Source: a virus
IMG/VR virus record: IMGVR_UViG_3300046006_000062
Location: 1-29,577 of that record
Direction: 5' to 3' (one strand)
DNA length: 29,577 bases
Shown: positions 14,220 to 29,577 of the stretch, one piece after another
How positions within the stretch are numbered: the stretch's first letter is position 1
Layout: the number at the start of each line of letters is the position of its first letter
Translations under genes and position numbers: made by a program
The notes under the pieces: model-generated
The model's database searches: none
What the model saw: the letters and a program-made list of their open reading frames with translations, nothing else
Told to the model about the DNA's origin: nothing

Positions 14220-14839
14220 TTTTTACTCCTTGATAACATAGTTGCAGCAATAAAAAGCATGGCTTTTGCTTGTTCTAATTCGGTTGGGGGGTTATCCCAA
14301 CCAACGGTAATCTGTCCTACAAACCTACTAGGGTCTGGCGGTACACTAATTCTACAACCAAAGGTCATGCCTTTTTCAATATACCAAAGCCCAATTTCTG
14401 ACTGTGGCGCTTTGTATACACCGCAAGGAATATCACCAGCCATTAAAGCTACTACATCTTGGTTATTTGATTGATTAGAAGTAAACAACCCAACATCCAA
14501 ACCATCATTGGTTTTATCCCGCCCCGTCTTTGTATAGGCTCGATACTGTATGCGAGTGCCAAACAAAGGATTAACTTTAAATATTGTTACTATAGTTGCA
14601 TCAGTCGTTTTAAACAAATGAACCGCTACATCGTCTACCCGATCTTCGGCAATACTGGGTAGCTTTTGACTCTCTTTATAAGTACCAACAATTAACTCTT
14701 TATTTTCGTAAAACGCCCAAGCACCAAAAACTAAAATTGCCATCAAAATAACCGCAAAAAGTTTAAATGGGGAGTCTACATACGCCAATATTTTAGATAA
14801 AACATCGTCTGAATTGTTTAATGGCATATTTATTTCCAT
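14216..14839 (-). CDS. Membrane-anchored protein next to the lysis genes (207 aa)
   Basis: A single strongly hydrophobic helix lies at about residues 24-43 (SPFKLFAVILMAILVFGAWA), followed by a roughly 160-residue domain predicted outside the membrane, of mixed alpha/beta character, with two cysteines (IPCGVY, TFGCRI). This is an N-in, anchored topology. An alternative start, MPLNN at 14827, sits 2 nt after the upstream stop and is equally plausible. The gene joins the holin by ATGA, so it may be a lysis accessory such as a spanin-like or antiholin-like protein. I recognise no family. Confidence 0.7.
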   Translation of the reverse strand: MEINMPLNNSDDVLSKILAYVDSPFKLFAVILMAILVFGAWAFYENKELIVGTYKESQKLPSIAEDRVDDVAVHLFKTTDATIVTIFKVNPLFGTRIQYRAYTKTGRDKTNDGLDVGLFTSNQSNNQDVVALMAGDIPCGVYKAPQSEIGLWYIEKGMTFGCRISVPPDPSRFVGQITVGWDNPPTELEQAKAMLFIAATMLSRSKK

Positions 14840-16321: not shown

Positions 16322-17023
16322 TTATATCTCCAAGTTATCGTTTCTAATGGTAGAACGCCCTTCTAATGGTCTGCCAAGAATGGTTGTATTTGTTTTGTCA
16401 TTATCCCAGTCATTGTAAGCAAAGATACCCATCTGATGAATTGGGAATATATCTGCTCGCAACATAATGTCAAGCGGTGCGTTAATACCATACTTCAATA
16501 CATGAGCAAGCATATTTTTTGCTACCGCTGGATCAATAGCATAACTGTGCGCTCGACAAATAAAATGATAGTTTGAACCTTCTGAAGCGTGTGGCGGTGT
16601 AGGTAATACCTTCCATCCTTGATTAACTTGTTCGTAACTACCCAAATAACAAATTGAATTAAATACTGAGTGTTGCGTGTAAGGCTTCACCATAATGGCA
16701 TCATGCTCTAAAATAACAATTGGTTCATCGTCAAGCACACACTTCTGCCATAGGCTAATATGAGATAAGGCACAGGCTACTTCACCACGAGTTAAATAAT
16801 GGTCAGTTATTTTTACCATTGCTGGAATACCATTATGTTGAGTAGGTGGTTTTATTGGATTTTTTATACCGTTATAAGCATCCCAGTATTCCCATGGCAT
16901 ACCCGCTAAATCACAACTGTCCGAACACCGTTTTGCTTTTTCCTCTGATTCAACATGATGTTCAATGCGAATAATATAGGCTTTAGAAACAGTTAGGTTG
17001 TAACTGTAATTAAGAGAAATCAT
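16322..17023 (-). CDS. Glycosyltransferase family 25 (LPS biosynthesis type) (233 aa)
   Basis: It has the GT25 layout: an N-terminal Rossmann strand (KAYIIRIEHH), then RGEVACALSHISLWQKC (residues 79-95), then the acidic EHD motif VILEHDA (E106, D108), the counterpart of the ExD nucleotide-sugar/metal site. A later segment, RAHSYAIDPAVAKNML, fits the family's substrate-side loop. GT25 enzymes transfer galactose or related sugars onto LPS cores, or onto proteins. Here it overlaps the RCC1 gene stop as TAATG, so it is co-translated with the likely receptor-binding propeller. It could alter host surface glycans or decorate a virion protein. Length is slightly short but complete. Confidence 0.85.
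   Translation of the reverse strand: MISLNYSYNLTVSKAYIIRIEHHVESEEKAKRCSDSCDLAGMPWEYWDAYNGIKNPIKPPTQHNGIPAMVKITDHYLTRGEVACALSHISLWQKCVLDDEPIVILEHDAIMVKPYTQHSVFNSICYLGSYEQVNQGWKVLPTPPHASEGSNYHFICRAHSYAIDPAVAKNMLAHVLKYGINAPLDIMLRADIFPIHQMGIFAYNDWDNDKTNTTILGRPLEGRSTIRNDNLEI
16326..16331 (-). promoter_or_regulatory. Ribosome binding site that decides the TTG start at 16321
   Basis: GGAGAT codes the last E-I of the GT25 protein; its GGAG core ends 6 nt before the TTG that opens the kinase/nucleotidyltransferase. The TTG directly follows the upstream TAA. Confidence 0.7.
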
Positions 17024-18132
17024 TAATCTTCTACACCAAACATAAAACCAAAAGGGGATGAGGCTATTTTAGACCAATTACCAGAACCAACTTGAGTAGG
17101 AGAAGAACGAGGACTTACATCGCCTAAACCTAATTGACCATTACTATTACGACCCCATGTCCATAAAGTTTTGTTTGTTTTAATGCCGCCCATTTGATAA
17201 CTAGCTGATACCTGAGACCACTCAGCACTTCCAAGTTGGGTAGGACTAGATCTGTTTGTGCCACTACCTGCACTTCCTAAACCTAAAGAACCAGCAGTAC
17301 CATTATAACCCCATACCCACAAAGTGTTATCTGTTTTAAGAGCAGCACGAAGACCAGTACCATTTGCTGAAACAAATGACCAATCAAGTAGTGCGCCTAT
17401 TTGAACAGGACTAGAAAAACCTATATAACTATTAGTGCCTAACTGACCTTGACCTTGAAAACCCCATGCAAAAAGCGCTCCATTTGTTCTTATTGCGTGT
17501 TCTCCATTATCACCAAGAGCTACGGAAGACCAAGAACCAGCAATCTGTACTGGAGACTTGATAGGAGCAGTAGCAGTTCCTTGACCAAGCTGTCCATTAC
17601 CGTTATTGCCCCAGATCCATAAAGAATTATCAGTTTTTATAGCAGCGCCCGCACGAGTACCGCCAGATACCTTTGCCCAAGTTAGTAATCCTCCAACTTG
17701 AGTAGGAGATGAGCGAGCGACCTCATCTCCTTGACCTAATTGACCTGTAGCATTTGGTCCCCATGTCCATAAAGATCCATCTGTTTTTACAGCTACACAA
17801 GCACCATTGTACATAGTAGCACTTACGCTAGACCAATCCATTAACGCTCCAACTTGAGTGGGGCTAGATCTTCGAACTCTATCATTTTGACCAAGCTGTC
17901 CCGCACCGTTATATCCCCATGTCCACAGAGTTCCATCTGCTTTAATAGCAGCAACACCATTACCAGCACAGCTTATAACAGTCCATTCCTCATTATCTAC
18001 TTGAACAGGAGAAGATCTATAAGTTCTGTTATTTGTACCTAATTGACCTTGATAATTATCACCCCAACTATACATAAATGGAATTTGTGCTGCGCCAATA
18101 GAAGCTAATAAACCTTGAAGAATACCAGTCAT
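17023..18132 (-). CDS. RCC1-repeat seven-bladed beta-propeller, possible receptor-binding protein (369 aa)
   Basis: Seven RCC1 repeats are visible, each with the pattern (L/Y)-x-x-WG-x-N-x-x-GQLG. The WG pairs lie at about residues 23, 72, 124, 174, 223, 274 and 327, a steady spacing of 49-53. Each is followed by RSSPTQV and a W-x-x-V-S strand. Seven blades make a closed ring. A short N-terminal segment (MTGILQGLLASIGAAQIP) could anchor it to the virion. The gene lies just downstream of fibre-type genes and a possible fibre chaperone, so a distal adhesin role is likely by context. The start ATG at 18132 is preceded by GGGAGAA encoded in the last codons of the upstream gene. Catalytic activity is not expected. 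Confidence 0.88.
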   Translation of the reverse strand: MTGILQGLLASIGAAQIPFMYSWGDNYQGQLGTNNRTYRSSPVQVDNEEWTVISCAGNGVAAIKADGTLWTWGYNGAGQLGQNDRVRRSSPTQVGALMDWSSVSATMYNGACVAVKTDGSLWTWGPNATGQLGQGDEVARSSPTQVGGLLTWAKVSGGTRAGAAIKTDNSLWIWGNNGNGQLGQGTATAPIKSPVQIAGSWSSVALGDNGEHAIRTNGALFAWGFQGQGQLGTNSYIGFSSPVQIGALLDWSFVSANGTGLRAALKTDNTLWVWGYNGTAGSLGLGSAGSGTNRSSPTQLGSAEWSQVSASYQMGGIKTNKTLWTWGRNSNGQLGLGDVSPRSSPTQVGSGNWSKIASSPFGFMFGVED

Positions 18133-18134
18133 TT

Positions 18135-18566
18135 TTATTCTCCCAATGCGTTAATATCTTCGTGCGTTACAGCAGAATTTATAGCATCTATGCGAGCTTC
18201 AAACAAAACACGAGCTGCGTCAACTGTGGCAGCGTTATATTGTGTTTCAGGATAGTTGTCTGTTTCTTTTGCAATTTCTGCATTAACTACAGATTTAAAT
18301 ACTTGTTTAACCATATTTCGCAACATATCTTTACGTTCATCTATTGTAATTTCACGTTTCCCCCAAACAATCTGTGCTGGGGTTACATCAAGATTAAAAT
18401 GATGCGTAGTTATTATTTCACGATTTGGGATTGTTTCTGGCATTAACTCAACCGCTTCACGCCAGCCAGGTTCATTGGCTATTTTTTCATCCGATGGCTT
18501 GTAATCCACAACGTTTAATATTTGACCGTCTTTTACCCGAATCCAAAAGCCCATTTTCGTAAGCAT
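18135..18566 (-). CDS. Possible tail-fibre assembly chaperone-like protein (143 aa)
   Basis: The N-terminal half is beta-rich (GFWIRVKDGQILNVVDYKP), then a segment VTPAQIVWGKREITIDERKD leads into a long helix. This V-x-W...T-x-x-E-R-K layout is common in small tail-fibre assembly proteins, but I cannot name a family with certainty. The ATG at 18566 has AAGGAG 7 nt upstream, inside the end of the sulfotransferase gene, giving an 80-nt out-of-frame overlap. It sits between fibre-type genes and the RCC1 propeller, the place where fibre chaperones are often found. Treat the role as a guess. Confidence 0.6.
   Translation of the reverse strand: MLTKMGFWIRVKDGQILNVVDYKPSDEKIANEPGWREAVELMPETIPNREIITTHHFNLDVTPAQIVWGKREITIDERKDMLRNMVKQVFKSVVNAEIAKETDNYPETQYNAATVDAARVLFEARIDAINSAVTHEDINALGE
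18138..18144 (-). promoter_or_regulatory. Ribosome binding site of the RCC1 gene, coded in the upstream 3' end
   Basis: GGGAGAA codes the final G-E of the 143-residue protein and lies about 5 nt before the ATG at 18132. Confidence 0.7.
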
Positions 18567-20301
18567 TGCGTAACTCCTTTTTCAAATTACTAAAGACTGA
18601 TACCCAGTCGTTATGATTTTTTTGACGAAACAGCTTAACACTGTCATACCACTCAGTACCATTTCCAGGTTTAGCCCACAAATAGTATGGCAAAATTGGA
18701 ACTACAATCCATGTAGGTATTCCCATTGCACCAGCTAAATGCGCTACTGATGTACATGAAGAAATTACAAGATCACAAGATGCAATAGATTTTTCCGTTG
18801 CATTCCAACTGGAAAGATCTGATTCTTTTACCCAAACTGGGCAATGTTCAGAACCCGCATCACGTTGAAGACTTATGTATTCAACATCTAACCCATCAAC
18901 TGCATTAAACATAAATTGAGGTGGGAATAAACGGTGTTGTTCGTGTTCAAACTGTGGATTTCCTTGCCAACGCAGACCAATCCTAATCTTGTTACTTTTT
19001 TCTACATCAGGACGAGGTACGTAAGATGAGCCATCAATATCTTTATATTGCCACTGTAGCGGTATAGATGCTGTCATAGATGGAACCCAAAAATCATGCA
19101 CAACACCAGACATAGCTTCATGTTGGATTACCATATCCACGCCTTCAGCTTTTCTAATCATTGTTGCTAGTGATCCTGAGCAAGCCACAATCACCTGATT
19201 ACCAAGCCGTTTTAACTCACGGGCAAAACGCAGTCCATGTATTTGATCACCAAGACCAGCTTCAAGATTTAAAAGAGCAGTGCCAGTTTGTATTCCATCC
19301 CAGATTGGTGTTGGTACTTTTGGTACTTCATTGCCAAATACTTTTTCAACTCGCCCACGATTAATTAACGTCATACCGTCAAGCAAATTGCCATTACGCA
19401 ATTCATACCAACCTTGATTAAAAGCAACACGATTATTTTTTGGTTCTTTAGTTACTAATTCTTGTAGAATTTTTTTGCTACCTTCAAAATCACCTATTAG
19501 GCTTAGTGCTAGTTGTTTACTTAGAGGATGAATTTCTTTATTTTGTAACGATTCATCTCTCCAAAAACATGGCTGTAAAAAATTTTGATACATATGTTCT
19601 AAAACATCTTTGCTATTTTGATTGTGTTGTTTTTTTAATTCTGGCTTGATGTCATGCAATCCTGGCAGCCGCCATACTTCTTCATCTCGTTCTTTTGGTG
19701 CAGTTTTATCTAAATGATTAAAATCGTACTCAAAAGACGGTAACTCAAGAAATTCTTCAATGTTACGCAATTGTTTTTGTGGATCTTTTATTAAGTCTTC
19801 ATATTCAATAAACAAAAAACAAGACTTGTCATAGTTATAGCCTGATTGCAATATTTGATAAGACTGTTTTAAATGATGGATAAATTCACTGTTGTATAAA
19901 AAATCTTCTAGATCGGTTGGTTTTGCAATCCTTACAAACGATGCTGCACAATCTTCTACATTTCTAACGGTAGCAATAATTTTAGGTTTGTAAGGTAACA
20001 ATTCTTTTAATACTCCAATCGTAGTAAATTCTGCCCAATTACGAGCTTTGTCAATTACAACAGGTTTATCAATGTGCTTATAACGAGCATCCATTATCCC
20101 GCACAATACTGCTTTAACTTGTTCAATTTCGGTAGATGCTTGCTCCGCAGTACTATTTTTCCATGCGTTAAATGTGTTAAACATCAACTCGCCAAGACCA
20201 CTAGTGGCACTAGCGTGTAATGCTGGATGTTGATTTAATAAAGCAGCAAGAACAGTACTACCTGATCTTGGAAGTCCCGCAAGAAAATAAAACTTTTTCA
20301 A
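18487..20301 (-). CDS. Sulfotransferase / GT9-like glycosyltransferase fusion (604 aa)
   Basis: Domain 1 (about residues 1-270) is a PAPS-type sulfotransferase: 5'-phosphosulfate loop GLPRSGST at 9-16, and R113 plus S121 (VRNVEDCAASF) with the canonical 8-residue spacing of the 3'-phosphate site. A short helical linker (VAFNQGWYELRNGNLLDGM), possibly TPR-like, follows. Domain 2 (about 320-590) is a GT-B domain resembling GT9 heptosyltransferases: EAGLGDQIHGLRF and the nucleotide-sugar motif SSCTSVAHLAGAMGIP with H521. I chose the TTG at 20301 (overlap TTGA with the upstream stop, AGGAG 10 nt upstream) because it gives the family N-terminus MKKFYFLAGLPRSG. A GTG at 20328 would add 9 residues. 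The product may sulfate and glycosylate a surface glycan or a virion protein. Confidence 0.85.
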   Translation of the reverse strand: MKKFYFLAGLPRSGSTVLAALLNQHPALHASATSGLGELMFNTFNAWKNSTAEQASTEIEQVKAVLCGIMDARYKHIDKPVVIDKARNWAEFTTIGVLKELLPYKPKIIATVRNVEDCAASFVRIAKPTDLEDFLYNSEFIHHLKQSYQILQSGYNYDKSCFLFIEYEDLIKDPQKQLRNIEEFLELPSFEYDFNHLDKTAPKERDEEVWRLPGLHDIKPELKKQHNQNSKDVLEHMYQNFLQPCFWRDESLQNKEIHPLSKQLALSLIGDFEGSKKILQELVTKEPKNNRVAFNQGWYELRNGNLLDGMTLINRGRVEKVFGNEVPKVPTPIWDGIQTGTALLNLEAGLGDQIHGLRFARELKRLGNQVIVACSGSLATMIRKAEGVDMVIQHEAMSGVVHDFWVPSMTASIPLQWQYKDIDGSSYVPRPDVEKSNKIRIGLRWQGNPQFEHEQHRLFPPQFMFNAVDGLDVEYISLQRDAGSEHCPVWVKESDLSSWNATEKSIASCDLVISSCTSVAHLAGAMGIPTWIVVPILPYYLWAKPGNGTEWYDSVKLFRQKNHNDWVSVFSNLKKELRNAYENGLLDSGKRRSNIKRCGLQAIG

Positions 20302-22640: not shown

Positions 22641-22928
22641 TTAAATTCTCCTTAATAAATTAGCAGCCTCAACTTCACCGCCTTGTACACAAACTTGAAT
22701 GCAACTAGCCCTTTCGGACTGTGCTGCACGACTCAAATATTCAGAGATTGTACGCTCTAATGCTTCTCTGAAATACTTTGCTTGCTCTCGAATTTCGGGT
22801 GGGGCAGTTTCTGATACCCCAATGATCCTATTTACGCAGAGTTCTGTCAATTCTTCAAGCGGTAAACCGCCATAATTACTTGTTTTTACGAGAGGGCTGA
22901 TAATATCGCCAGTTTTAATTTCAAACAT
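22641..22928 (-). CDS. Small helical hypothetical protein (95 aa)
   Basis: I do not recognise this protein. It is mostly helical (LPLEELTELCVNRIIGVSE, then IREQAKYFREALERTISEYL), with four cysteines including SCIQVCVQGG near the C-terminus. The ATG is preceded by AAGAGGACA, which also codes the last residues (KRT) of the upstream DUF115-like protein. Its position in the structural operon suggests a small assembly or virion-associated factor. Confidence 0.6.
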   Translation of the reverse strand: MFEIKTGDIISPLVKTSNYGGLPLEELTELCVNRIIGVSETAPPEIREQAKYFREALERTISEYLSRAAQSERASCIQVCVQGGEVEAANLLRRI

Positions 22929-23636
22929 TTATGTCCTCTTTGCTTCTGGTGGGTTGTACTCCACCTCGTCTTTTACCGTATCTTTAACTTCTGAGTACTT
23001 TTTAGCCACAAATCGCTCGTTTTCTAGCCCTACGACCAACGGATCCTTAAGACGATGATAGCCGTACAGCTTACTAATAGTCGGCTCGCTGGTGTCTAAC
23101 AGGCATGATCCTTGAGCTATACCAACCTTAATACCCCGTTCCATTGCCTTTGCCAGTAAAAACTCGCAACACGCCCTACCTGCCTCAGCAAAGTGGACTA
23201 CGTTTTTGTAAGAAAAATCAATCCCATACAGGTGGATTTGCCCTACTTTGGCAGCAATTGCATAACCAATAGCAAAGGCTACGGTGTTGTTAAAGTATCC
23301 CGTCCCGCAAGCATTCATTACTTCATCTAGGGGAAACTCTACTAATCCAGGACAACGGGGGTCTAGTTCACAGGTATAGATTGGTCCTGTGTGCTTCTCT
23401 AGTACCGACCGCATAAGTCCAGTTTGAGTGCCTGCATCATCACTGTCTAGGAATCGGCTGGCTGGATCTAGCATAAAGACTCGGTCGTGGTAAATGACCC
23501 CTGCCATAGCGTTAATTGCCCATACTTCATCAATTGGCTGAGAATGGGTCTTGGCTAGGATAAACTGACTATGGGATTTGCCCATTGCCACAATAGCAAT
23601 GCTTTTACCTGATAAGTTTGGAACTTTATTAATCAT
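22929..23636 (-). CDS. DUF115/MAF-like Rossmann protein (235 aa)
   Basis: It has a Rossmann-type start (KSIAIVAMGKSHSQFI) and then IDEVWAINAM, followed by FNNTVAFAIGYAIAAKVGQI and HLYGIDFSY. This pattern (GG/NNTV...A...G...I-x-L-x-G-x-D) matches the DUF115 family, which includes the motility accessory factor and sugar-related transferases. Phages often carry such genes near their tail modules, presumably to alter glycans or tail proteins. The C-terminal 40 residues are charged and extended. It joins the upstream adaptor-like gene by ATGA. Enzyme activity is not proven. Confidence 0.65.
   Translation of the reverse strand: MINKVPNLSGKSIAIVAMGKSHSQFILAKTHSQPIDEVWAINAMAGVIYHDRVFMLDPASRFLDSDDAGTQTGLMRSVLEKHTGPIYTCELDPRCPGLVEFPLDEVMNACGTGYFNNTVAFAIGYAIAAKVGQIHLYGIDFSYKNVVHFAEAGRACCEFLLAKAMERGIKVGIAQGSCLLDTSEPTISKLYGYHRLKDPLVVGLENERFVAKKYSEVKDTVKDEVEYNPPEAKRT
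22932..22940 (-). promoter_or_regulatory. Ribosome binding site inside the KRT end (22928 start)
   Basis: AAGAGGACA codes the final K-R-T of the DUF115-like protein and lies just before the start of the 95-residue gene. Confidence 0.6.
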
Positions 23637-24292
23637 CTGACTTGGTACTTTACTTGTCCATTTCTATAGGAGTCTTGACCATCTTTTGCATCACCTAATT
23701 GTTTAAGTTCTGTCATGGCTCTAACATAACGTTCTTTGTATAAAGTAACCGCATCGGCATCGGATTTCATAAAATTAGCCGCTTCTATTAAAGCACCATA
23801 TAAGAGCACTGAATCAAAATTATTTCCCAGCCAAGACGTCCCAGCCGTCACAATTGAAGGTGGATAGTAGAAATAATGAAGCTCTGTAGCATAACTAGCG
23901 TTTGGGGTAGGTCCAAGAATAAAGGTGTTATCGTTAAATACAGCGTAATACTGAGGTTCTCCAAAGAACGCAGCGTCTGTACTTGGGAATGACTCACGGA
24001 TAAAGCTAACATCTTTATTTAGTAAGTATTTATACTCATTTACCGCATTAATCACCGCAAAACTAAAGGTAGCTAACCAATCTGTGGGGGTTGCTACGTA
24101 CTTATTGCCACTAGTCATATTACCTGTAACGTTTTGGCGAAACGCAGGTAGCTGTACGGTATTAAAAACACTTTGCTCGGCAAGCTGTACAAACCTAGCA
24201 ATCTGCTCGGCAGACGTAAACGACCCTACTGTCGCTGGGAAGTCATTCTCAGCAAAGCCTTTAATAGCGGACGTTAACTGCGTGTAATTCAT
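23633..24292 (-). CDS. Phage adaptor protein, SU10-type (219 aa)
   Basis: This is likely a head-tail adaptor or connector protein. It has the layout of the SU10-like adaptor family: N-terminal helices with IARFVQLAEQSVFNTVQLPA, then a beta segment (KYVATPTDWLATFSFAV) and a late helical part (LLYGALIEAANFMKSDADAV, LYKERYVRAMTELKQLGDA). The segment FGEPQYYAVFNDNTFILGPT resembles the beta domain of gp4/gp11-type connectors. It joins the upstream basic protein by ATGA, with GGGAAGA upstream. The assignment is from pattern recall, not a search. Confidence 0.75.
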   Translation of the reverse strand: MNYTQLTSAIKGFAENDFPATVGSFTSAEQIARFVQLAEQSVFNTVQLPAFRQNVTGNMTSGNKYVATPTDWLATFSFAVINAVNEYKYLLNKDVSFIRESFPSTDAAFFGEPQYYAVFNDNTFILGPTPNASYATELHYFYYPPSIVTAGTSWLGNNFDSVLLYGALIEAANFMKSDADAVTLYKERYVRAMTELKQLGDAKDGQDSYRNGQVKYQVR

Positions 24293-24543
24293 CCCATCTT
24301 CCCGCTAGACATACGACCTTTGGTTGCTGCACCAGCACCACGCATCTCAATCTTGCCGTATTGATTTACGGGTCTACCATTACCTTTACTAATCCCATCA
24401 ACAGAAATATTCATGTTAGCCATTTCTTGAGCACCCGTGGTGTCTTTAACAGTAACAGGTTTGCCGTCCATTGTATGCGGCTTAGCATAGACTTTAGCGT
24501 CTCCGACTTCCTTACCCATTACTTTTTTAGAGAATTTAGGCAT
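24289..24543 (-). CDS. Small basic protein with cationic Gly/Lys tail (84 aa)
   Basis: It is lysine- and glycine-rich, without cysteines or hydrophobic segments. The tail EMRGAGAATKGRMSSGKMG is of a type I recall on small proteins of aquatic phages. The bases coding the final GKMG (GGGAAGATGGGATGA) also serve as the Shine-Dalgarno and start overlap of the adaptor gene. The start overlaps the upstream gene as TAATG. It may bind nucleic acid or act in assembly; the function is unknown. Confidence 0.65.
   Translation of the reverse strand: MPKFSKKVMGKEVGDAKVYAKPHTMDGKPVTVKDTTGAQEMANMNISVDGISKGNGRPVNQYGKIEMRGAGAATKGRMSSGKMG
24297..24303 (-). promoter_or_regulatory. Ribosome binding site inside the SSGKMG tail (24292 start)
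   Basis: GGGAAGA codes G-K-M of the 84-residue protein and lies 4 nt before the ATGA start of the adaptor gene. Confidence 0.7.
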
Positions 24544-24755
24544 TATCGACCCCTTCCAGCGGATTTACGCATCATGCCTTGGTTCTGAACTTTTGCTAAA
24601 TTACGCCCAATTTTCTTCATTACCATCTGGTCTTTACCACCCATCTTTGGCTTTGCCTTCATGCCCAAGACTGTAGGACCGCTATCACCTAAGTTTTTAC
24701 CTTCAGTCTTGCCTTTTTTAGCAATCCCATCTGCGCTTTTCTTAAACATTTTCAA
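24543..24755 (-). CDS. Small basic protein with N-terminal KSADGIAKKGKT motif (70 aa)
   Basis: The segment FKKSADGIAKKGKTEGKN (residues 4-21) is a copy of the motif found at the C-termini of proteins further upstream (ASKRADGIAIRGKTRA and relatives). Here it is N-terminal, which shows that it is a portable peptide element. The rest is Lys/Met/Gly-rich and ends RKSAGRGR. The ATG has AAGGAGTT upstream. Net charge is strongly positive. Function unknown. Confidence 0.65.
   Translation of the reverse strand: MKMFKKSADGIAKKGKTEGKNLGDSGPTVLGMKAKPKMGGKDQMVMKKIGRNLAKVQNQGMMRKSAGRGR
24550..24557 (-). promoter_or_regulatory. Ribosome binding site inside the SAGRGR tail (24543 start)
   Basis: GGAAGGGG codes the G-R-G end of the 70-residue basic protein and lies 6 nt before the TAATG start of the 84-residue gene. 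Confidence 0.7.
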
Positions 24756-24759
24756 CTCC

Positions 24760-25182
24760 TTATGTTGTTGTTACCGTTACACTACCTACCTGACCTTCTG
24801 GTGCCAAATTGTTTGGGGTTAGACCATCATTTTGTGACCCCCCAACAGGGTTCCATCCCCATTGAAATATTCTACTACCACCTTCTGGAAAACCAACACC
24901 CTGTAGGGTAGTGTCGTTTGTTCCGTTAATCTGTAAACCGCTACTTCCAGATACTTGATAGCTTACATCGGGTCTAGGATTCCGAACAGCCTGTGGGTCA
25001 TCCACTGGGTACATCCCTAACGACAATTGTGGCTGATCTGGTTCCCAACAACTAGGGCATACCAAAATATTCTTTATTTGCTGCTTAACAACTAACTTTT
25101 TAAGCTCCTTTAGCTTATACCGCTGACCGCATCGGTCACATTCGGCAATCGCAAATTTGCCACTACTAAATTTATTAGGCAT
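24760..25182 (-). CDS. Zinc-ribbon virion-associated protein (140 aa)
   Basis: Two CxxC pairs, C15/C18 (ECDRCGQRYKLKEL) and C42/C45 (LVCPSCWEPDQP), form a treble-clef or zinc-ribbon module. The second pair is followed by LGMYPVDDPQAVRNPRPD, a combination I recall beside adaptor genes in environmental phages. The C-terminal half is Gly/Asn/Pro-rich and ends APEGQVGSVTVTTT, which resembles half of the VSGTG repeat. I chose the ATG at 25182 (8-nt overlap with the upstream gene); a TTG at 25203 would add 7 residues read through the upstream coding end. Confidence 0.75.
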   Translation of the reverse strand: MPNKFSSGKFAIAECDRCGQRYKLKELKKLVVKQQIKNILVCPSCWEPDQPQLSLGMYPVDDPQAVRNPRPDVSYQVSGSSGLQINGTNDTTLQGVGFPEGGSRIFQWGWNPVGGSQNDGLTPNNLAPEGQVGSVTVTTT

Positions 25183-26101
25183 AGAAGTTCGCCCTAGGAA
25201 CAAACCTAGAAGCGGCTTTTTCTCTGTCCTCCGTAGAAGCCATGAGCCACTGCTCCTCGTATTCCTGTTTTAAAAAGGGTAGCCGCATTTGCCCGTCAGG
25301 TAGCTTCTGAGCCATGTAGAAAGCCAATCCTGCCACCATGCAAGGTAGTAATCTAAAAGGTATGTCCTGCTCAAAAGTGCCATTTGTGCCAGCGTCTTGG
25401 ACTCTACGTAGTCTCCAATAGACAAAGGTATATGGACCACCGCCTGCGTCAGGTGTGGGCCAGACATTTACAGCAGGTAAGTTTTGAACTGTAATCACCG
25501 CAGCAGAAGTGTGTGCCGCAGCAGTCGTACCGTTTTGCCCACGGTTTACATTAATTAGATTATTGCCTGTCACATTGGAGTAGCTAATGACTTCAGAATC
25601 AATTTTAATAAAACCTGTAGTCGATAAGTAACTAGCGTTAGAAACAGGAATAGTCGTAGCTGTTGACGTAATCGTACTAGCTAGGGTTGCTGAGGACGTA
25701 TTAGACTGACCAGACTGGCGGTTAAACCACATCTGAATAGGGCGTCCAGTGGTTAACTTATTAGGTATTGTTGCCCAAGTAGACTCTGAAATACGACTAA
25801 TATTGATGTCAACTTGATTACTTGCAACACCATTATTCTGACGAATTACCGCATCTAAGATGTCAATAGTATCTACGGGCATTGGGTATAAGCCTTGTCC
25901 TGTAGTGAATAGAATCTGACCTTGCTCAATTGTCCAAAGGTTAATACCACGATTAGCCCATTCAATCGTCAAAAGGTTTAAAGACCTACGGGCAGTCCGC
26001 ATATCGTAACCCGTACGCAATTCCGTACCACAACGCTCAAAAGCCTCTTCAATGAGGTTATTAAGGTCTAGGTTAAACGCTACGGTTCCAGAAGTACTCA
26101 T
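25175..26101 (-). CDS. Head-tail adaptor-like protein with inserted beta domain (308 aa)
   Basis: Helical N-terminus LNNLIEEAFERCGTELRTGY, then MRTARRSLNLLTIEWANRGI and NLWTIEQGQILFTTGQGLYP. This is the connector layout of P22 gp4 or T7 gp11-type adaptors in aquatic podoviruses. Between WFNRQ and NLPAVNVWPTPD lies an insert (about residues 132-207) with IPVSNASYLSTTGFIKIDSE and VNRGQNGTTAAAH, a small beta module I recall in unrelated phage proteins. After it come VYWRLRRVQD and a helical C-terminus (LKQEYEEQWLMASTEDREKA). Start ATGA overlap. The function is by analogy. Confidence 0.78.
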   Translation of the reverse strand: MSTSGTVAFNLDLNNLIEEAFERCGTELRTGYDMRTARRSLNLLTIEWANRGINLWTIEQGQILFTTGQGLYPMPVDTIDILDAVIRQNNGVASNQVDINISRISESTWATIPNKLTTGRPIQMWFNRQSGQSNTSSATLASTITSTATTIPVSNASYLSTTGFIKIDSEVISYSNVTGNNLINVNRGQNGTTAAAHTSAAVITVQNLPAVNVWPTPDAGGGPYTFVYWRLRRVQDAGTNGTFEQDIPFRLLPCMVAGLAFYMAQKLPDGQMRLPFLKQEYEEQWLMASTEDREKAASRFVPRANFYA

Positions 26102-26445
26102 ATCTTCCTATATGGTTTTACTTTTGCTTTGATCCCTTTGGGCTGCGGAACAAACTGTTTCCCAGCTGCTTTTCCCGCCCGCTTTGCTCGTGTTGTTGCT
26201 GCGTACTCCTGTGAGCTTAACGCTTGTATTGCCTTCTTGGGCAAGTATCTCTCGCCCGTCTCGGACGACTTCTTGCCTGACTTGGTCTGCCAGTCTTGGT
26301 CTCCCCAAGATTTTAAAGATTGCTGGGATTTTGCCAAACCACCCCCTGCCATCTTCTTCTTTTTGCTGGCGCAATGAGCCTTCTCCGAGAACCCCTTTGG
26401 GCTGTCGCAGTTGATCGACTTTTTGCGCTTGTCCGACCATTTCAC
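26098..26445 (-). CDS. Small basic protein, SQEYAATTRAKRAG type (115 aa)
   Basis: It is strongly basic. Visible segments are SWGDQDWQTKSGKKSSETGE, RYLPKKAIQALSSQEYAATT and RAKRAGKAAGKQFVPQPKGI, a combination I recall in many small proteins of aquatic phages. Two cysteines lie early (INCDSP, AHCASK). The start is GTG at 26445, overlapping the upstream stop as GTGA. A second long reading frame over the same bases (26108-26458) lacks any family pattern and is rejected. The ending RKI (AGGAAGATA) doubles as the ribosome site of the adaptor gene. It probably binds DNA or a structural partner. Confidence 0.72.
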   Translation of the reverse strand: MKWSDKRKKSINCDSPKGFSEKAHCASKKKKMAGGGLAKSQQSLKSWGDQDWQTKSGKKSSETGERYLPKKAIQALSSQEYAATTRAKRAGKAAGKQFVPQPKGIKAKVKPYRKI

Positions 26446-26870
26446 TTATAGCCTCCACCTGCTGCTTTATAACGTTTAGCCATTAACTGGGCTTTGCGAG
26501 CTGACCATTGACCAGCACCAGTTCCCTGCACCGCTGCGGCTTTGATGCTGTTAAAGATCCGCTTACGCAAACTTGGTTTTGTGTAATTGCCTGCCTCGTT
26601 TACTTTAGACTTAGCCTCACCACCTTCTTTGTATTTAGCAGTTCTAGCTGCACTAGCAAAGTCACCCTTCTTAGGAGCGCCTTTGGATCCAGCACTACGC
26701 ATCTTCTCGCCTGACCCAGAAGCTATGCGTTTTTTCTTTGCGGCGATATTAGCGTAGAGACCACCACCAGCGTACATCTCCACATCTTCTGGATTATCTT
26801 TACGCTTGATAGTTCTCTTTCCAGGCATCTTAGAAGGGTTTATATCTCCCATACCACGACTTGGTCTCAT
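26442..26870 (-). CDS. Small basic protein (142 aa)
   Basis: Lys/Arg/Ala-rich throughout. Visible pieces are MPGKRTIKRKDNPEDVEMYA, AGGGLYANIAAKKKRIASGS and AQLMAKRYKAAGGGYK. No cysteine, TM segment or enzyme motif is present. The GGGLYANIAAKKKRIASG segment echoes the Gly-Gly loops in the other small proteins. It overlaps its upstream neighbour as ATGA and its downstream neighbour as GTGA, so it is tightly coupled. Unknown function; a nucleic-acid- or capsid-binding role would suit the charge. Confidence 0.65.
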   Translation of the reverse strand: MRPSRGMGDINPSKMPGKRTIKRKDNPEDVEMYAGGGLYANIAAKKKRIASGSGEKMRSAGSKGAPKKGDFASAARTAKYKEGGEAKSKVNEAGNYTKPSLRKRIFNSIKAAAVQGTGAGQWSARKAQLMAKRYKAAGGGYK

Positions 26871-27085
26871 GCTCTTGTCTTTCCTCTAATTGCTATGCCA
26901 TCTGCACGTTTAGAAGCAGAAGATACCTTGCCACCTTTTTTCATGCCTTTTGCAGCAACCATAGCCTGTAACATTTTTTTAGCTTTTGCCTCATCTTCAT
27001 TAGTAGTTCCAGAGGAAGCTCCTGTTCCAGTTTCTGCCATACCCTGCTTAAACATTTCAATCATTTGTGGCGCCATAAACCCCAT
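26867..27085 (-). CDS. Small protein with C-terminal KRADGIAIRGKT tail (72 aa)
   Basis: The N-terminal part is helical and Met-rich (FMAPQMIEMFKQGMAE). A Ser/Thr/Gly linker leads to a helix (NEDEAKAKKMLQAMVAAKG). The tail is KKGGKVSSASKRADGIAIRG-KTRA. The tail bases AGAGGAAAG form the ribosome site of the next gene, which begins at the ATGA overlap. The same tail, with about 24 of 26 identical bases in its centre, recurs in the upstream 126-residue gene. Confidence 0.68.
   Translation of the reverse strand: MGFMAPQMIEMFKQGMAETGTGASSGTTNEDEAKAKKMLQAMVAAKGMKKGGKVSSASKRADGIAIRGKTRA
26879..26887 (-). promoter_or_regulatory. Ribosome binding site inside the RGKTRA tail (26870 start)
   Basis: AGAGGAAAG codes R-G-K of the tail of the 72-residue gene and lies 8 nt before the ATGA start of the 142-residue gene. 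Confidence 0.7.
26898..26923 (-). repeat. Direct repeat copy A coding ASKRADG
   Basis: 26 bases of this stretch match the stretch at 27128-27153 at 24 positions (plus-strand core ccatctgcacgtttaga). Both code S-S-A-S-K-R-A-D-G in neighbouring genes, which points to duplication of the tail, or to strong selection on it. Confidence 0.65.
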
Positions 27086-27087
27086 AG

Positions 27088-27468
27088 TTACACCATCTTC
27101 CCTTTAGTTTTACCTTTAATGGCACATCCATCTGCACGTTTAGAGGCGGAAGAACGAATAATACCGCCAGCTTTGTTATTTCTCATTAGGTCACGGTTAG
27201 TCTTTGGTATGCCAGTGCTACCACTACTACCGCTAGGTAATCTACCCATATCTTGAAGTCTTTCGGTATAGGTACGTGAGCGCGTAGCTTCAGCATTTGT
27301 TTTTTGCTCTCCTGCTATTTTGCTTATTTCATCCCTAGCCTTTTGAGCCTTCTCAGCTTTCTCTAGAATTTCGTCAAACTTTCCAGGACCATGCTTTGGC
27401 TTGGCTGGATATTTCTCCTGCCCGTCACCGCCAGTCTTTTTAGAAGGGTCTATAGGATTAATTGCCAT
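27088..27468 (-). CDS. Small basic protein with C-terminal KRADGCAIKGKT tail (126 aa)
   Basis: The first 40 residues are Lys/Pro/Gly-rich (KTGGDGQEKYPAKPKHGPGK). A charged helix follows (FDEILEKAEKAQKARDEISK), probably a coiled coil. A linker of polar residues precedes the tail AGGIIRSSASKRADGCAIKG-KTKGKMV. The tail codons AAAGGGAAGATGG act as the ribosome site for the 72-residue gene, 2 nt after the stop. The start ATG directly abuts the upstream stop. Confidence 0.68.
   Translation of the reverse strand: MAINPIDPSKKTGGDGQEKYPAKPKHGPGKFDEILEKAEKAQKARDEISKIAGEQKTNAEATRSRTYTERLQDMGRLPSGSSGSTGIPKTNRDLMRNNKAGGIIRSSASKRADGCAIKGKTKGKMV
27096..27103 (-). promoter_or_regulatory. Ribosome binding site inside the GKTKGKMV tail (27085 start)
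   Basis: AGGGAAGA, identical to the element at 28033-28040, codes the K-G-K-M tail of the 126-residue gene and lies about 10 nt before the next ATG. Confidence 0.6.
27128..27153 (-). repeat. Direct repeat copy B coding ASKRADG
   Basis: This is the partner of the copy at 26898-26923, 230 bases away, in the 126-residue gene. The two mismatches are third-position changes. Confidence 0.65.
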
Positions 27469-27789
27469 TTAGCAAGCCTTACCGCCGCCCATCATCTTAA
27501 TCATCTTGCCTTTGGTCTTACCTTTGATTTCAATGCCACCACCTTTAGCCATACCGTGCAGACGCTTTTCGTGACCCTTAACGGCTTTAGTAGCTACCTT
27601 CTTCATCATTGGCTTGTCTTTAGCCATATCTGAATGAACCTTACCACCGTGTTTCATTTTGCCTTTACCGTCAGCAGCAAACGCTGGGACTTTTTCACCA
27701 TCTTTCATAACCATTGGCATACCATTAGACATCTTTATGGGTTTCTTTTTAGCCATAATAGCCATCATTCCTGGATTCATCTTTTTCAT
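27469..27789 (-). CDS. Lys/Met-rich small basic protein (106 aa)
   Basis: Extremely rich in lysine (about a quarter of residues) and methionine (17 by my count). Visible pieces are MKKMNPGMMAIMAKKKPIKM, NGMPMVMKDGEKVPAFAADG and the tail KGGGIEIKGKTKGKMI followed by KMMGGGKAC. The tail is a variant of the shared GKTKGKM motif. No secondary structure other than short helices is obvious. The gene ends directly at the ATG of the next gene. It may condense DNA or bind a virion partner; this is inference from charge only. Confidence 0.65.
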   Translation of the reverse strand: MKKMNPGMMAIMAKKKPIKMSNGMPMVMKDGEKVPAFAADGKGKMKHGGKVHSDMAKDKPMMKKVATKAVKGHEKRLHGMAKGGGIEIKGKTKGKMIKMMGGGKAC

Positions 27790-27794
27790 GTCAT

Positions 27795-28028
27795 TTACCT
27801 TTTAATAAGTTGGTCAATTTTGTCTTCAAGTTTGTTAAACCTTGCGTCCATGTGTTCAACAATGCGGTCAACTTCTGCTTTAGTGACGTTATCACGTGCT
27901 ACCTCCTCACGAGTCTTATTTAATAAAATATCAATCCGTTTTAATTCGTTGAACTTTTCGTGCATGACGTATCCAATAAACGCTATAAATATTGTAAGTC
28001 CACCAGTCCAAAGTTCCAATACATTCAT
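27795..28028 (-). CDS. Membrane-anchored coiled-coil protein (77 aa)
   Basis: A single TM helix lies at about residues 7-23 (WTGGLTIFIAFIGYVMHEKF). A charged coiled coil runs to the C-terminus (RIDILLNKTREEVARDNVTK, then VEHMDARFNKLEDKIDQLIK). This is a common layout for small phage holin-like or membrane-associated proteins and for DUF1640-like helices. It sits among the small basic genes, far from the main lysis cassette, so a holin role is uncertain. ATG overlaps the upstream stop, with AGGGAAGA 4 nt upstream. Confidence 0.65.
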   Translation of the reverse strand: MNVLELWTGGLTIFIAFIGYVMHEKFNELKRIDILLNKTREEVARDNVTKAEVDRIVEHMDARFNKLEDKIDQLIKR

Positions 28029-28345
28029 ACCATCTTCCCTTTAGTCTTGCCACGGACTTCGCACCCGCCACCACGAACTGATCCGCCTTCTTTACAGTTC
28101 CAAGCCCGTAAAGATTTGTTGATGCGTGAATCTGGGTCATTGGCAGTTTTAGCAGATGTGAGCTTTTTCTTCATACCTGACATTCTGGCGCAAAATGACT
28201 TCTTTCTTGAACCGCCTTCTGGTTGAGGACGCTTTAATCCAGGTTTGCCAGGATTGGCTGCGTTGTACGAAGCTCTACCCTTGGCGTTTAAACCGCCTTC
28301 AGGGTTTTTGCCCTCTTTGCGTTGCCACGCAGGAGTCTTAGCCAT
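28025..28345 (-). CDS. Small basic protein with CEVRGKTKGKMV tail (106 aa)
   Basis: It begins MAKTPAWQRKEGKNPEGGLN, continues with AKGRASYNAANPGKPGLKRP, then a basic middle (GGSRKKSFCARMSGMKKKLT) and NDPDSRINKSLRAWNCKEGG. The N-terminal K-T-P-A-W-x-R-x-E-G-K-x-x-x-G-G-L-N-x-K-G-R segment is one I recall from many aquatic-phage proteins (a DUF6321-like pattern; name uncertain). Cysteines C-A-R-M and N-C-K may form a metal site. The tail is GGGCEVRGKTKGKMV, and its codons carry the next gene's ribosome site. Confidence 0.7.
   Translation of the reverse strand: MAKTPAWQRKEGKNPEGGLNAKGRASYNAANPGKPGLKRPQPEGGSRKKSFCARMSGMKKKLTSAKTANDPDSRINKSLRAWNCKEGGSVRGGGCEVRGKTKGKMV
28033..28040 (-). promoter_or_regulatory. 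Ribosome binding site inside the GKTKGKM tail (28028 start)
   Basis: AGGGAAGA on the minus strand codes part of the K-G-K-M tail of the 106-residue gene and lies 4 nt before the overlapping ATGA start of the TM/coiled-coil gene. Confidence 0.7.
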
Positions 28346-28851: not shown

Positions 28852-29004
28852 TTAATTCTCCTGGTCTGTATGTTGAGCAGCGAGTTTAGCTTTTAGCTCT
28901 TCAATTTGCTTAGCCTGCATCGCTACAATACCCATAACATGATCTCTTTGAGATTCCAGAAGCCCAAGCATTACCTGAACTTCTGGGTCTTTATGAGTCA
29001 ACAT
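28852..29004 (-). CDS. Short helical protein (50 aa)
   Basis: This short frame fills the only sizeable gap in the window. It begins MLTHKDPEVQVMLGLLESQR, continues with DHVMGIVAMQAKQIEELKAK, and ends LAAQHTDQEN. It is a charged, amphipathic helix likely to form a coiled coil. The start overlaps the upstream stop as TAATG, and its 3' end contains the AGGAGA ribosome site of the next gene. These couplings support a real gene, though the product has no known function. Confidence 0.6.
   Translation of the reverse strand: MLTHKDPEVQVMLGLLESQRDHVMGIVAMQAKQIEELKAKLAAQHTDQEN
28857..28862 (-). promoter_or_regulatory. Ribosome binding site AGGAGA for the 170-aa gene
   Basis: AGGAGA on the minus strand lies 6 nt before the ATG at 28850, within the last codons of the 50-residue gene (Q-E-N). 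It supports both the start and the reality of the short gene. Confidence 0.75.
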
Positions 29005-29577
29005 TAGGTTTGAGTACCAACAACTACCCAGGTTGGGTTGCTGATTGCACCAGTATTGATATACAACTTACCACCAGCCGAATCAACATACAAAGAACCC
29101 GTACCAGCAAAGTTATCGCCAGTAGTGCCATTAGTTGGAACACCTGCGTCAACCATAACTACAACGTCATCTTCCATACGGATGTTAGCTTTGGTATATG
29201 GTCTAACACCAGAAGGACCGCCAGCATCAGCTACAGGGTCTTGCATCTTCAGATCAATACCAAATTCAAAGCCAGAACCAGCTGTGGTTTGAGCCATTGC
29301 AACACCAAAAGCGCAACGAGCGGTAGTTACACCAGAATCGCCATCCATAAACGCCATAACAGCAGCATCGCCTGACAGGGTATTAGTATTAATAGTACCC
29401 ATTACACCAGCCATTAAGCCGTTGTTAGCATATGTGCCAATAACTGCAAACTCACCTACTGTACCAGCCATATGGTTAAAAGTAGTAGAAGGAGCCACAG
29501 CAAAAGGAGCACCACACTGGACACGTCCAAATACAGAGAAAGCCTCGCCAGGAGTTAAATAGCTGCTTGAGCCAAAA
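29004..29577 (-). CDS. Structural protein, 5'-truncated at the window edge
   Basis: The frame is open from the window edge; the visible part starts GSSSYLTPGEAFSVFGRVQC. A GTG at 29498 is internal and not needed as a start. The protein is beta-rich with segments TTFNHMAGTVGEFAVIGTYA and GDAAVMAFMDGDSGVTTARC, and a late block DNFAGTGSLYVDSAGGKLYI. That last block (GSLYVD-x-x-x-GKLYI) is a short beta module I recall at the ends of other phage head and fibre proteins. It is probably a capsid-associated or fibre protein, placed before the decoration-type gene. The upstream part is missing. Confidence 0.72.
   Translation of the reverse strand, partial: FGSSSYLTPGEAFSVFGRVQCGAPFAVAPSTTFNHMAGTVGEFAVIGTYANNGLMAGVMGTINTNTLSGDAAVMAFMDGDSGVTTARCAFGVAMAQTTAGSGFEFGIDLKMQDPVADAGGPSGVRPYTKANIRMEDDVVVMVDAGVPTNGTTGDNFAGTGSLYVDSAGGKLYINTGAISNPTWVVVGTQT

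Follow-up and report, generated by a model that had tools for sequence, protein, structure and literature searches.

The window analyzed here is a stretch of 29,577 bases, positions 1 to 29,577 of the IMG/VR virus record IMGVR_UViG_3300046006_000062, and it belongs to a compact phage in which most genes abut or overlap by 1-8 nucleotides (nt). The main genes of the window are all on the - strand, as are all of its sites and peptide copies described below, and reading runs downwards from a structural gene at 29,577. A protein encoded at 28025-28345 has a DUF6321 domain (PF19846) at residues 12-82, and another gene, at 26101-25175, has its matches among the tail or portal adaptors of short-tailed phages. 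Our subject is the Shine-Dalgarno (SD) sequences that lie inside the ends of these genes, together with a conserved peptide tag that forms several of those ends. An original prediction for this DNA had cited eight junctions at which the last codons of one gene spell the ribosome-binding site of the next, and had suggested that the basic chemistry of the tails may partly be a by-product of coupled translation. The eight cited codon strings were all found at their places on the - strand; the span that had been given for them, 22928-28045, holds only seven, as the eighth (18138) lies outside it.

Junctions in the window with a gap of -14 to +5 were treated as close (n = 28). For each, the score was the best Watson-Crick stacking energy against the anti-SD sequence at 4-20 nt before the next start, and the null was obtained by re-coding the last seven residues of the upstream gene with the synonymous codons of the genome in 2,000 shuffles. 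The observed mean was -6.65 kcal/mol, compared to an expected value of -5.26 (standard deviation 0.34), and only 1 of the 2,000 shuffles was as good. The complementarity of the gene tails to the 3' end of the 16S ribosomal RNA therefore exceeds both chance and what their amino-acid content would provide.

The cited sites that lie within the tag are two copies of AAAGGGAAG, which encode K-G-K at 28034-28042 (next start 28028, overlap ATGA; the same spelling class as the Ct5 tags in relatives) and at 27097-27105 (next start 27085), and AGAGGAAAG, which encodes R-G-K at 26879-26887 (next start 26870, overlap ATGA; Ct2 tag class). The others are AGGAAG (R-K, 26104-26109; next start 26101), GGAAGGGG (G-R-G, 24550-24557; next start 24543, TAATG), a weak GGGAAG (G-K, 24298-24303; next start 24292), AAGAGGACA (K-R-T, 22932-22940; next start 22928) and GGGAGAA in a tail ending G-E (18138-18144; next start 18132). 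Several of the cited sites are weak: the site at 24297 scores GGA only, and that at 27096 scores AAGG only, 15 nt from the start (wobble pairs being unscored). The strongest in-gene sites had not been listed at all. These are TAAGGAG (L-R-R, in NLLRRI, 22648-22654; next start 22639), the strongest at -12.0 kcal/mol, GGAGG in a G-G-G tail (26452-26456; next start 26445, a GTG; -10.9 kcal/mol), AAGGAG (S-R-S, 14226-14231; next start 14219; -10.7 kcal/mol) and AGGAG in an acidic tail (Q-E-N, 28858-28862; next start 28850; -9.8 kcal/mol). Nor are the tails that spell SD sequences all basic. The non-basic tails D-Q-E-N, A-L-G-E and D-N-L-E-I do so via GAG or GGA-GAA codons, with GGAG present in the NALGE and DNLEI tails.

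Two scans of viral contigs provided 155 further loci among the matches listed, some of them overlapping. Genes in these relatives were called by a dicodon score with starts set by an SD-blind rule, and the window and its relatives together gave 1,392 distinct co-directional junctions, the majority from the relatives. The gap distribution was bimodal, with gaps of -8 to 3 and of 8 to 13 and a dip at 4-7. The commonest gaps were -4 and -1 (247/1,392 and 187/1,392), which are stop/start overlaps of the kind associated with translational coupling. The hole in the distribution at 4-7 nt is where an SD would fall on the stop codon. SD energy peaked 3-9 nt before the start, the distance at which an SD is placed. 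In close pairs the peak was -6.25 and lay inside the upstream tail, whereas in spaced pairs it was -8.6 and lay in the spacer, against a background of about -3.3; tails therefore carry a weaker SD than spacers. With the amino acids fixed, the SD position in close pairs still showed an excess, which came to -1.38 kcal/mol over 190 tail families (p = 2e-16). This excess depended on a close downstream start, as the original prediction had anticipated: tails with the next start 8-20 nt away showed no synonymous excess, and there was slight avoidance or even reversal. Likewise, there was no synonymous excess, or slight avoidance, at 15-45 nt upstream of close starts, and no significant excess in far pairs, a class that was not used as the main control because many of its junctions hide missed genes.

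That SD sequences overlap upstream genes is already known. The results of Palleja et al. (2009; PMC2784483), obtained in bacteria, include a bimodal gene spacing with a deficit of mid-length spacers, frequent SD sequences at 1-4 nt spacing inside the upstream coding sequence, and A/G-rich codons before the stop (Eyre-Walker being also cited there). In-gene SD sequences at short spacing, the mid-length deficit and A/G-rich pre-stop codons were all seen here. Their study dealt with gene spacing and the choice of stop codon and did not include overlapping pairs, whereas in our analysis the codon and amino-acid parts of the signal are separated. SD strength is reported to be constant in prokaryotic genes, as cited in PMC2784483, unlike the weaker tail and stronger spacer sites found here. 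A GGTGA fusion of stop codon and SD in the fusellovirus SSV4 is also reported among those results. SSV4 resembles the present phage in having a compact viral genome where one stretch does both coding and SD work, but in SSV4 it is the stop codon that joins the SD, while here it is the sense codons of the tail, including those of a conserved peptide.

Relative to the gene body, the total effect was -2.63, with -1.59 (61%) due to codons and -1.04 (39%) to amino acids; when tag genes were left out the split was 63% codons and 37% amino acids. Codons in non-tag tails were counted at 7-12 nt before the next start and compared with the gene body by a family bootstrap. At these positions Gly was GGA/GGG in 72% of cases (gene body 21%), Lys was AAG in 63% (35%), Arg was AGA/AGG in 85% (26%) and Glu was GAG in 62% (29%). 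Amino-acid usage shifted as well. Close pairs changed by +8.2 percentage points for Gly, +6.2 for Lys and Arg together, +3.5 for Glu and -2.9 for Asp, with bootstrap intervals that exclude zero, whereas in spaced pairs the change in Lys and Arg (+3.4) was not significant, Gly was down and Glu was flat. The Lys/Arg/Gly enrichment proposed for tails near close starts is thus present, but acidic Glu is raised along with these residues, and the pull is therefore not towards basic charge; it favors purine-rich codons, including those of Glu, rather than basic chemistry. At the last residue, Lys/Arg accounted for 45-52% at gaps -4 and -1, mostly as AAA and outside the SD zone, in agreement with a general C-terminal bias towards Lys in bacteria (PMC7246954). 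In that 2020 paper, Lys and Arg are enriched at the last residues and NNA occurs before TGA as a consequence of ATGA overlaps, and both features were also found here. That paper ties the Lys/Arg bias to protein levels and degradation, while in our data there is a second, neighbor-dependent pull at 7-12 nt.

Four conspicuous basic tails of the window, three of them among the eight cited junctions (28033, 27096 and 26879), proved to be copies of one conserved peptide, SAS-x-RADG-[CI]-A-x-[RK]-GKT-[KR]-[GA]. Five otherwise different small proteins of the window carry this tag and have little else in common; a terminal peptide shared by otherwise unrelated proteins is also a feature of the capsid-targeting peptides of internal head proteins. 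C-terminal copies are found at 28028-28075 (RGGGCEVRGKTKGKMV, after the DUF6321 domain; Gly codons GGC then GGG), at 27091-27153 (SSASKRADGCAIKGKTKGKMV; Gly codons GGT then GGG) and at 26870-26923 (SSASKRADGIAIRGKTRA; Gly codon GGA). A subterminal copy at 27499-27546 (KGGGIEIKGKTKGKMI; Gly codons GGT and GGC) is followed by the nine residues KMMGGGKAC and has no SD position, and an N-terminal copy at 24696-24749 (MFKKSADGIAKKGKTEGK; Gly codons GGC and GGT) is far from any downstream start. The DUF6321 homologue of Pelagibacter phage HTVC115P stops at RAWNC, which is where the tag begins here, and the window protein has a tag of about 24 residues added. A tblastn match past the stop of the HTVC115P DUF6321 looked like a remnant of the tag and was judged not to be one.

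Our tag search fixed the G, the GKT (G and T positions) and one neighboring position, and left the other consensus positions free. Across loci this gave 374 distinct instances, mostly in proteins of 60-200 residues; the spacing G-x4-G-[KRH]-T was present in all of them, and nearly all had GKT. The C-terminal consensus was A (94%), S (98%), x, R (100%), A (90%), D (95%), G, [C/I], A, [I/V], [R/K], G, K, T, [R/K], [G/A]. The end points are precise, as the protein stops either exactly two residues after GKT (RGKTRA-stop) or five residues after it (KGKTKGKMV-stop). The remaining copies either end 10-24 residues ahead of the stop, in proteins that often terminate in GGKAC, or start near the N-terminus, at residue 6-7. 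The AS-x-RADG stretch, upstream of the SD zone, is written with many synonyms. Twelve larger records had nearly all of their copies within a single cluster spanning a few kilobases, for example at 53.8-58.6 kb in a record of 60 kb. The carriers have a strongly basic composition, with a median net charge of +0.105 per residue, and their tag-less bodies fall into 46 single-linkage groups, with most tag genes in one group. We also noted that subterminal tags often end GGKAC, GGAC or MGKAC, that is, with a conserved C-terminal cysteine (window 27469-27498 and homologues).

A degenerate DNA pattern for RADGCAxxGKT matched at least 120 stretches of viral contigs. In 257 gigabases of bacterial and archaeal genomes it had one match, a phage contig with the same module, and a protein scan of bacterial and archaeal genomes found no tag. 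Searches by tblastn with the 23-residue tag tail and with tag proteins of 126 and 68 residues returned nothing from 50,697 phage records, the short query having low power, and the tag was not found in the stretches read from DSL-LC04, HTVC023P, ct7L0027 and HTVC115P. PHROGs and Pfam held no family for the tag, giving only DUF6321 and weak or unknown-function matches, and solved structures gave no usable match. In the literature we found no paper on DUF6321 and nothing on such a tag. Nor did a virion proteome of a tag-bearing phage come to light. The portable tag appears to be undescribed.

Comparison of the tag copies revealed that their spelling follows the place of the next start codon. In the five-residue form GGA/GGG was used at the first Gly in only 7/122 cases and at the second Gly in 103/122, and this second codon is mostly 8-14 nt before the next start. 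In the two-residue form it is the first Gly that was GGA/GGG (78/81). At places away from the SD the Gly codons are GGC/GGT, with GGA/GGG well below the background of 33% (subterminal tags 1/81 and 4/76; N-terminal tags 4/62 and 6/54), as would be the case under selection against AAAGGA-type strings within genes. The same switch was observed within single protein families (families 4 and 5), where a two-residue end goes with GGA/GGG at the first Gly and a five-residue end with GGA/GGG at the second. Counted per locus, the direction was 87 to 1 with 5 ties; collapsed at 90% identity it was 52 to 0, and at 80% identity 11 to 0. New loci found with the DNA pattern replicated these results (five-residue form 6/132 and 90/132, two-residue form 31/35, subterminal 3/52 and 0/43).

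Tags whose next start lies 4-25 nt away keep the peptide, and GGA/GGG is used in 5/22 of them versus 304/372 close cases (p = 1e-8). That the tag stays before spaced starts while the SD codons mostly go indicates that the SD is overlaid on the tag and is not its cause. The tag is a feature of the protein, kept for a protein-level reason, and the data do not support the need for an SD as the source of the eye-catching basic tails among the cited junctions. With respect to the test the original prediction had set itself, that of genes with no close downstream neighbor, the same tails do occur at such genes, but not with the same codons.

Some further variation was seen at the ends of the tags. 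Tags before a spaced gene tend to end in Cys or Tyr (KIC, KMY), mostly with TAA (L075, L079, L137, L140, L153, L156, L163 and similar loci), and the usual final residue of coupled tags is Val, followed by TGA or TAA; which residue comes last seems to vary with the junction type. In tag tails ending GCTTGAGACC (L021, L072) the start codon of the next gene is set by the third base of the final codon: GCA-TGA gives ATG, GCG-TGA gives GTG and GCT-TGA gives TTG, and the next protein (M-R-P-S-R-G) is unchanged.

Overall, these data very probably reflect two layers, in which SD sequences in gene tails are formed mainly via synonymous codons and are overlaid on a conserved protein tag. The SD layer is established statistically. 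Where genes abut or overlap, the ribosome-binding site of the next gene has to sit in the last 2-6 sense codons of the upstream gene. Selection works mainly by synonymous choice (Gly as GGA/GGG, Lys as AAG, Arg as AGA/AGG and Glu as GAG) and in lesser part by amino-acid choice, with Gly, Lys/Arg and Glu raised and Asp lowered. Such an SD may let terminating or new ribosomes start the next gene, by translational coupling or reinitiation, and the overlaps together with the SD signal suggest that the in-tail SD drives coupled translation of that gene. The tag, carried by several different small proteins of the head-to-adaptor gene cluster, forms the second layer and is kept at the protein level. 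Its codons are re-spelled into an SD only at places where this is required by the next start, and SD strings are avoided elsewhere.

Several points weigh against this two-layer explanation. Spaced tag cases are few (22), and 8/10 of the spaced RGKTRA cases are of one junction type; two cases with TTG starts were reassigned by hand to the close class, the TTG overlapping the stop. Near-end Gly is also rich in GGA/GGG in non-tag spaced pairs (82%, from a small weighted number). Close and spaced pairs are different kinds of genes, which makes the amino-acid part less secure than the codon part. The gene and start calls are computational and some starts will be wrong, the far class holds missed genes, and kinship among relatives was handled by clustering only. 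Finally, the energy score is a simple one in which G-U wobble pairs are unscored, and the anti-SD was taken as canonical.

The stronger form of the by-product idea, in which basic Lys/Arg/Gly tails owe their existence to the SD that the next gene requires at that place, we consider unlikely. Amino acids do make up about 39% of the SD signal, and Gly and Lys/Arg are raised exactly 7-12 nt before close starts and not in spaced pairs. However, Glu is raised too, last-residue Lys is mostly AAA, and for the tags the idea is already contradicted: the sequence is kept N-terminally, subterminally without an SD, and before spaced genes with the SD codons mostly swapped for synonyms, and its most conserved residues are upstream of the SD zone. 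Descent offers another account, according to which the tags were copied from a small number of ancestral DNA segments, their codon pattern being inherited rather than selected. Genes of the same genome do have similar tag DNA (two window genes, for example, share GCTTCTAAACGTGCAGATGG) and most tag genes are in one single-linkage group, yet tail forms within families 4 and 5 switch their Gly codons to the new SD place, 52/55 sequence clusters show the pattern and none reverses it, there is synonymous diversity at the other tag positions, and non-tag genes share the codon shift, all of which makes this account quite improbable. Least probable of all is an effect of gene ends as such (termination context or low structure) that is independent of the next gene and is merely displayed by the tag Gly at -4/-5. 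In both coupled forms 4-5 residues separate the SD-like Gly from the stop, so the distances to stop and start are nearly confounded; against this, a spaced next start mostly goes with GGC/GGT at that residue (GGA/GGG in 5/22 versus 304/372), and spaced genes lack the synonymous SD excess at their ends or even show the reverse.

As to what the tag does, its spread over different proteins, its exact end points and its confinement to the capsid-to-adaptor cluster favor its being a signal by which small virion or assembly proteins are docked or packaged. Several unrelated small internal head proteins of phage T4 have one short terminal capsid targeting sequence, which is N-terminal and cleaved. 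The tag resembles this arrangement as a functional analogy only, in that unrelated small proteins have a common short terminal peptide; it differs in being mostly C-terminal, and any packaging role of it is putative. We tentatively propose, with somewhat less than even confidence, that uncultured aquatic phages use a virus-specific portable tag, SAS-x-RADG-[CI]-A-x-[RK]-GKT-[KR], attached to the end or the start of several small proteins encoded between the capsid and tail-adaptor genes, as a common docking or packaging address; as the tag is often the C-terminus of overlapping genes, it would exist in two spellings, with and without a ribosome site. Alternatively, the tag may be a basic tail that binds nucleic acid, or a remnant of gene duplication, a reading that we likewise place a little short of an even chance. 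The strongly basic carriers and the predicted lack of structure in the tag suit nucleic-acid binding, while the conserved non-basic residues S-10, A-11, A-7, D-6 and T+2, along with R-8 and the precise end points, favor recognition over charge alone. The tag matches the Walker A consensus G-x4-GK[TS], and a P-loop nucleoside triphosphatase (NTPase) was considered and rejected, as both architecture and modeling are against it: often only 2 or 5 residues follow the motif, and the tag is modeled as unstructured, with a predicted local distance difference test (pLDDT) score of about 43-51 and no strands, rather than as an NTPase fold. The model of one carrier, which is of low overall confidence (mean pLDDT 64), shows a helix at residues 30-62 and no structure in the tail.

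Two other proteins, both read by eye, were observed downstream of the structural cluster. One, at 17023-18132, has RCC1-like repeats (GALLDWSSVSA...TDGSLWTWG), and the other, a large protein at 18487-20301, starts like a sulfotransferase.

These findings address the question of how far regulatory sites in compact genomes shape the proteins that they overlap. The tag is a natural experiment, as one peptide is found at several positions with its synonymous choice flipping according to the place of the next start codon, and it lets codon and amino-acid effects be measured apart (about 60:40). Selection is visible in two directions, favoring an SD at places that need one and disfavoring an SD elsewhere. 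C-terminal composition in overlapping genes should be interpreted with caution, neither as pure protein chemistry nor as a mere by-product. For these phages, the tag marks a set of small proteins that probably share a partner.

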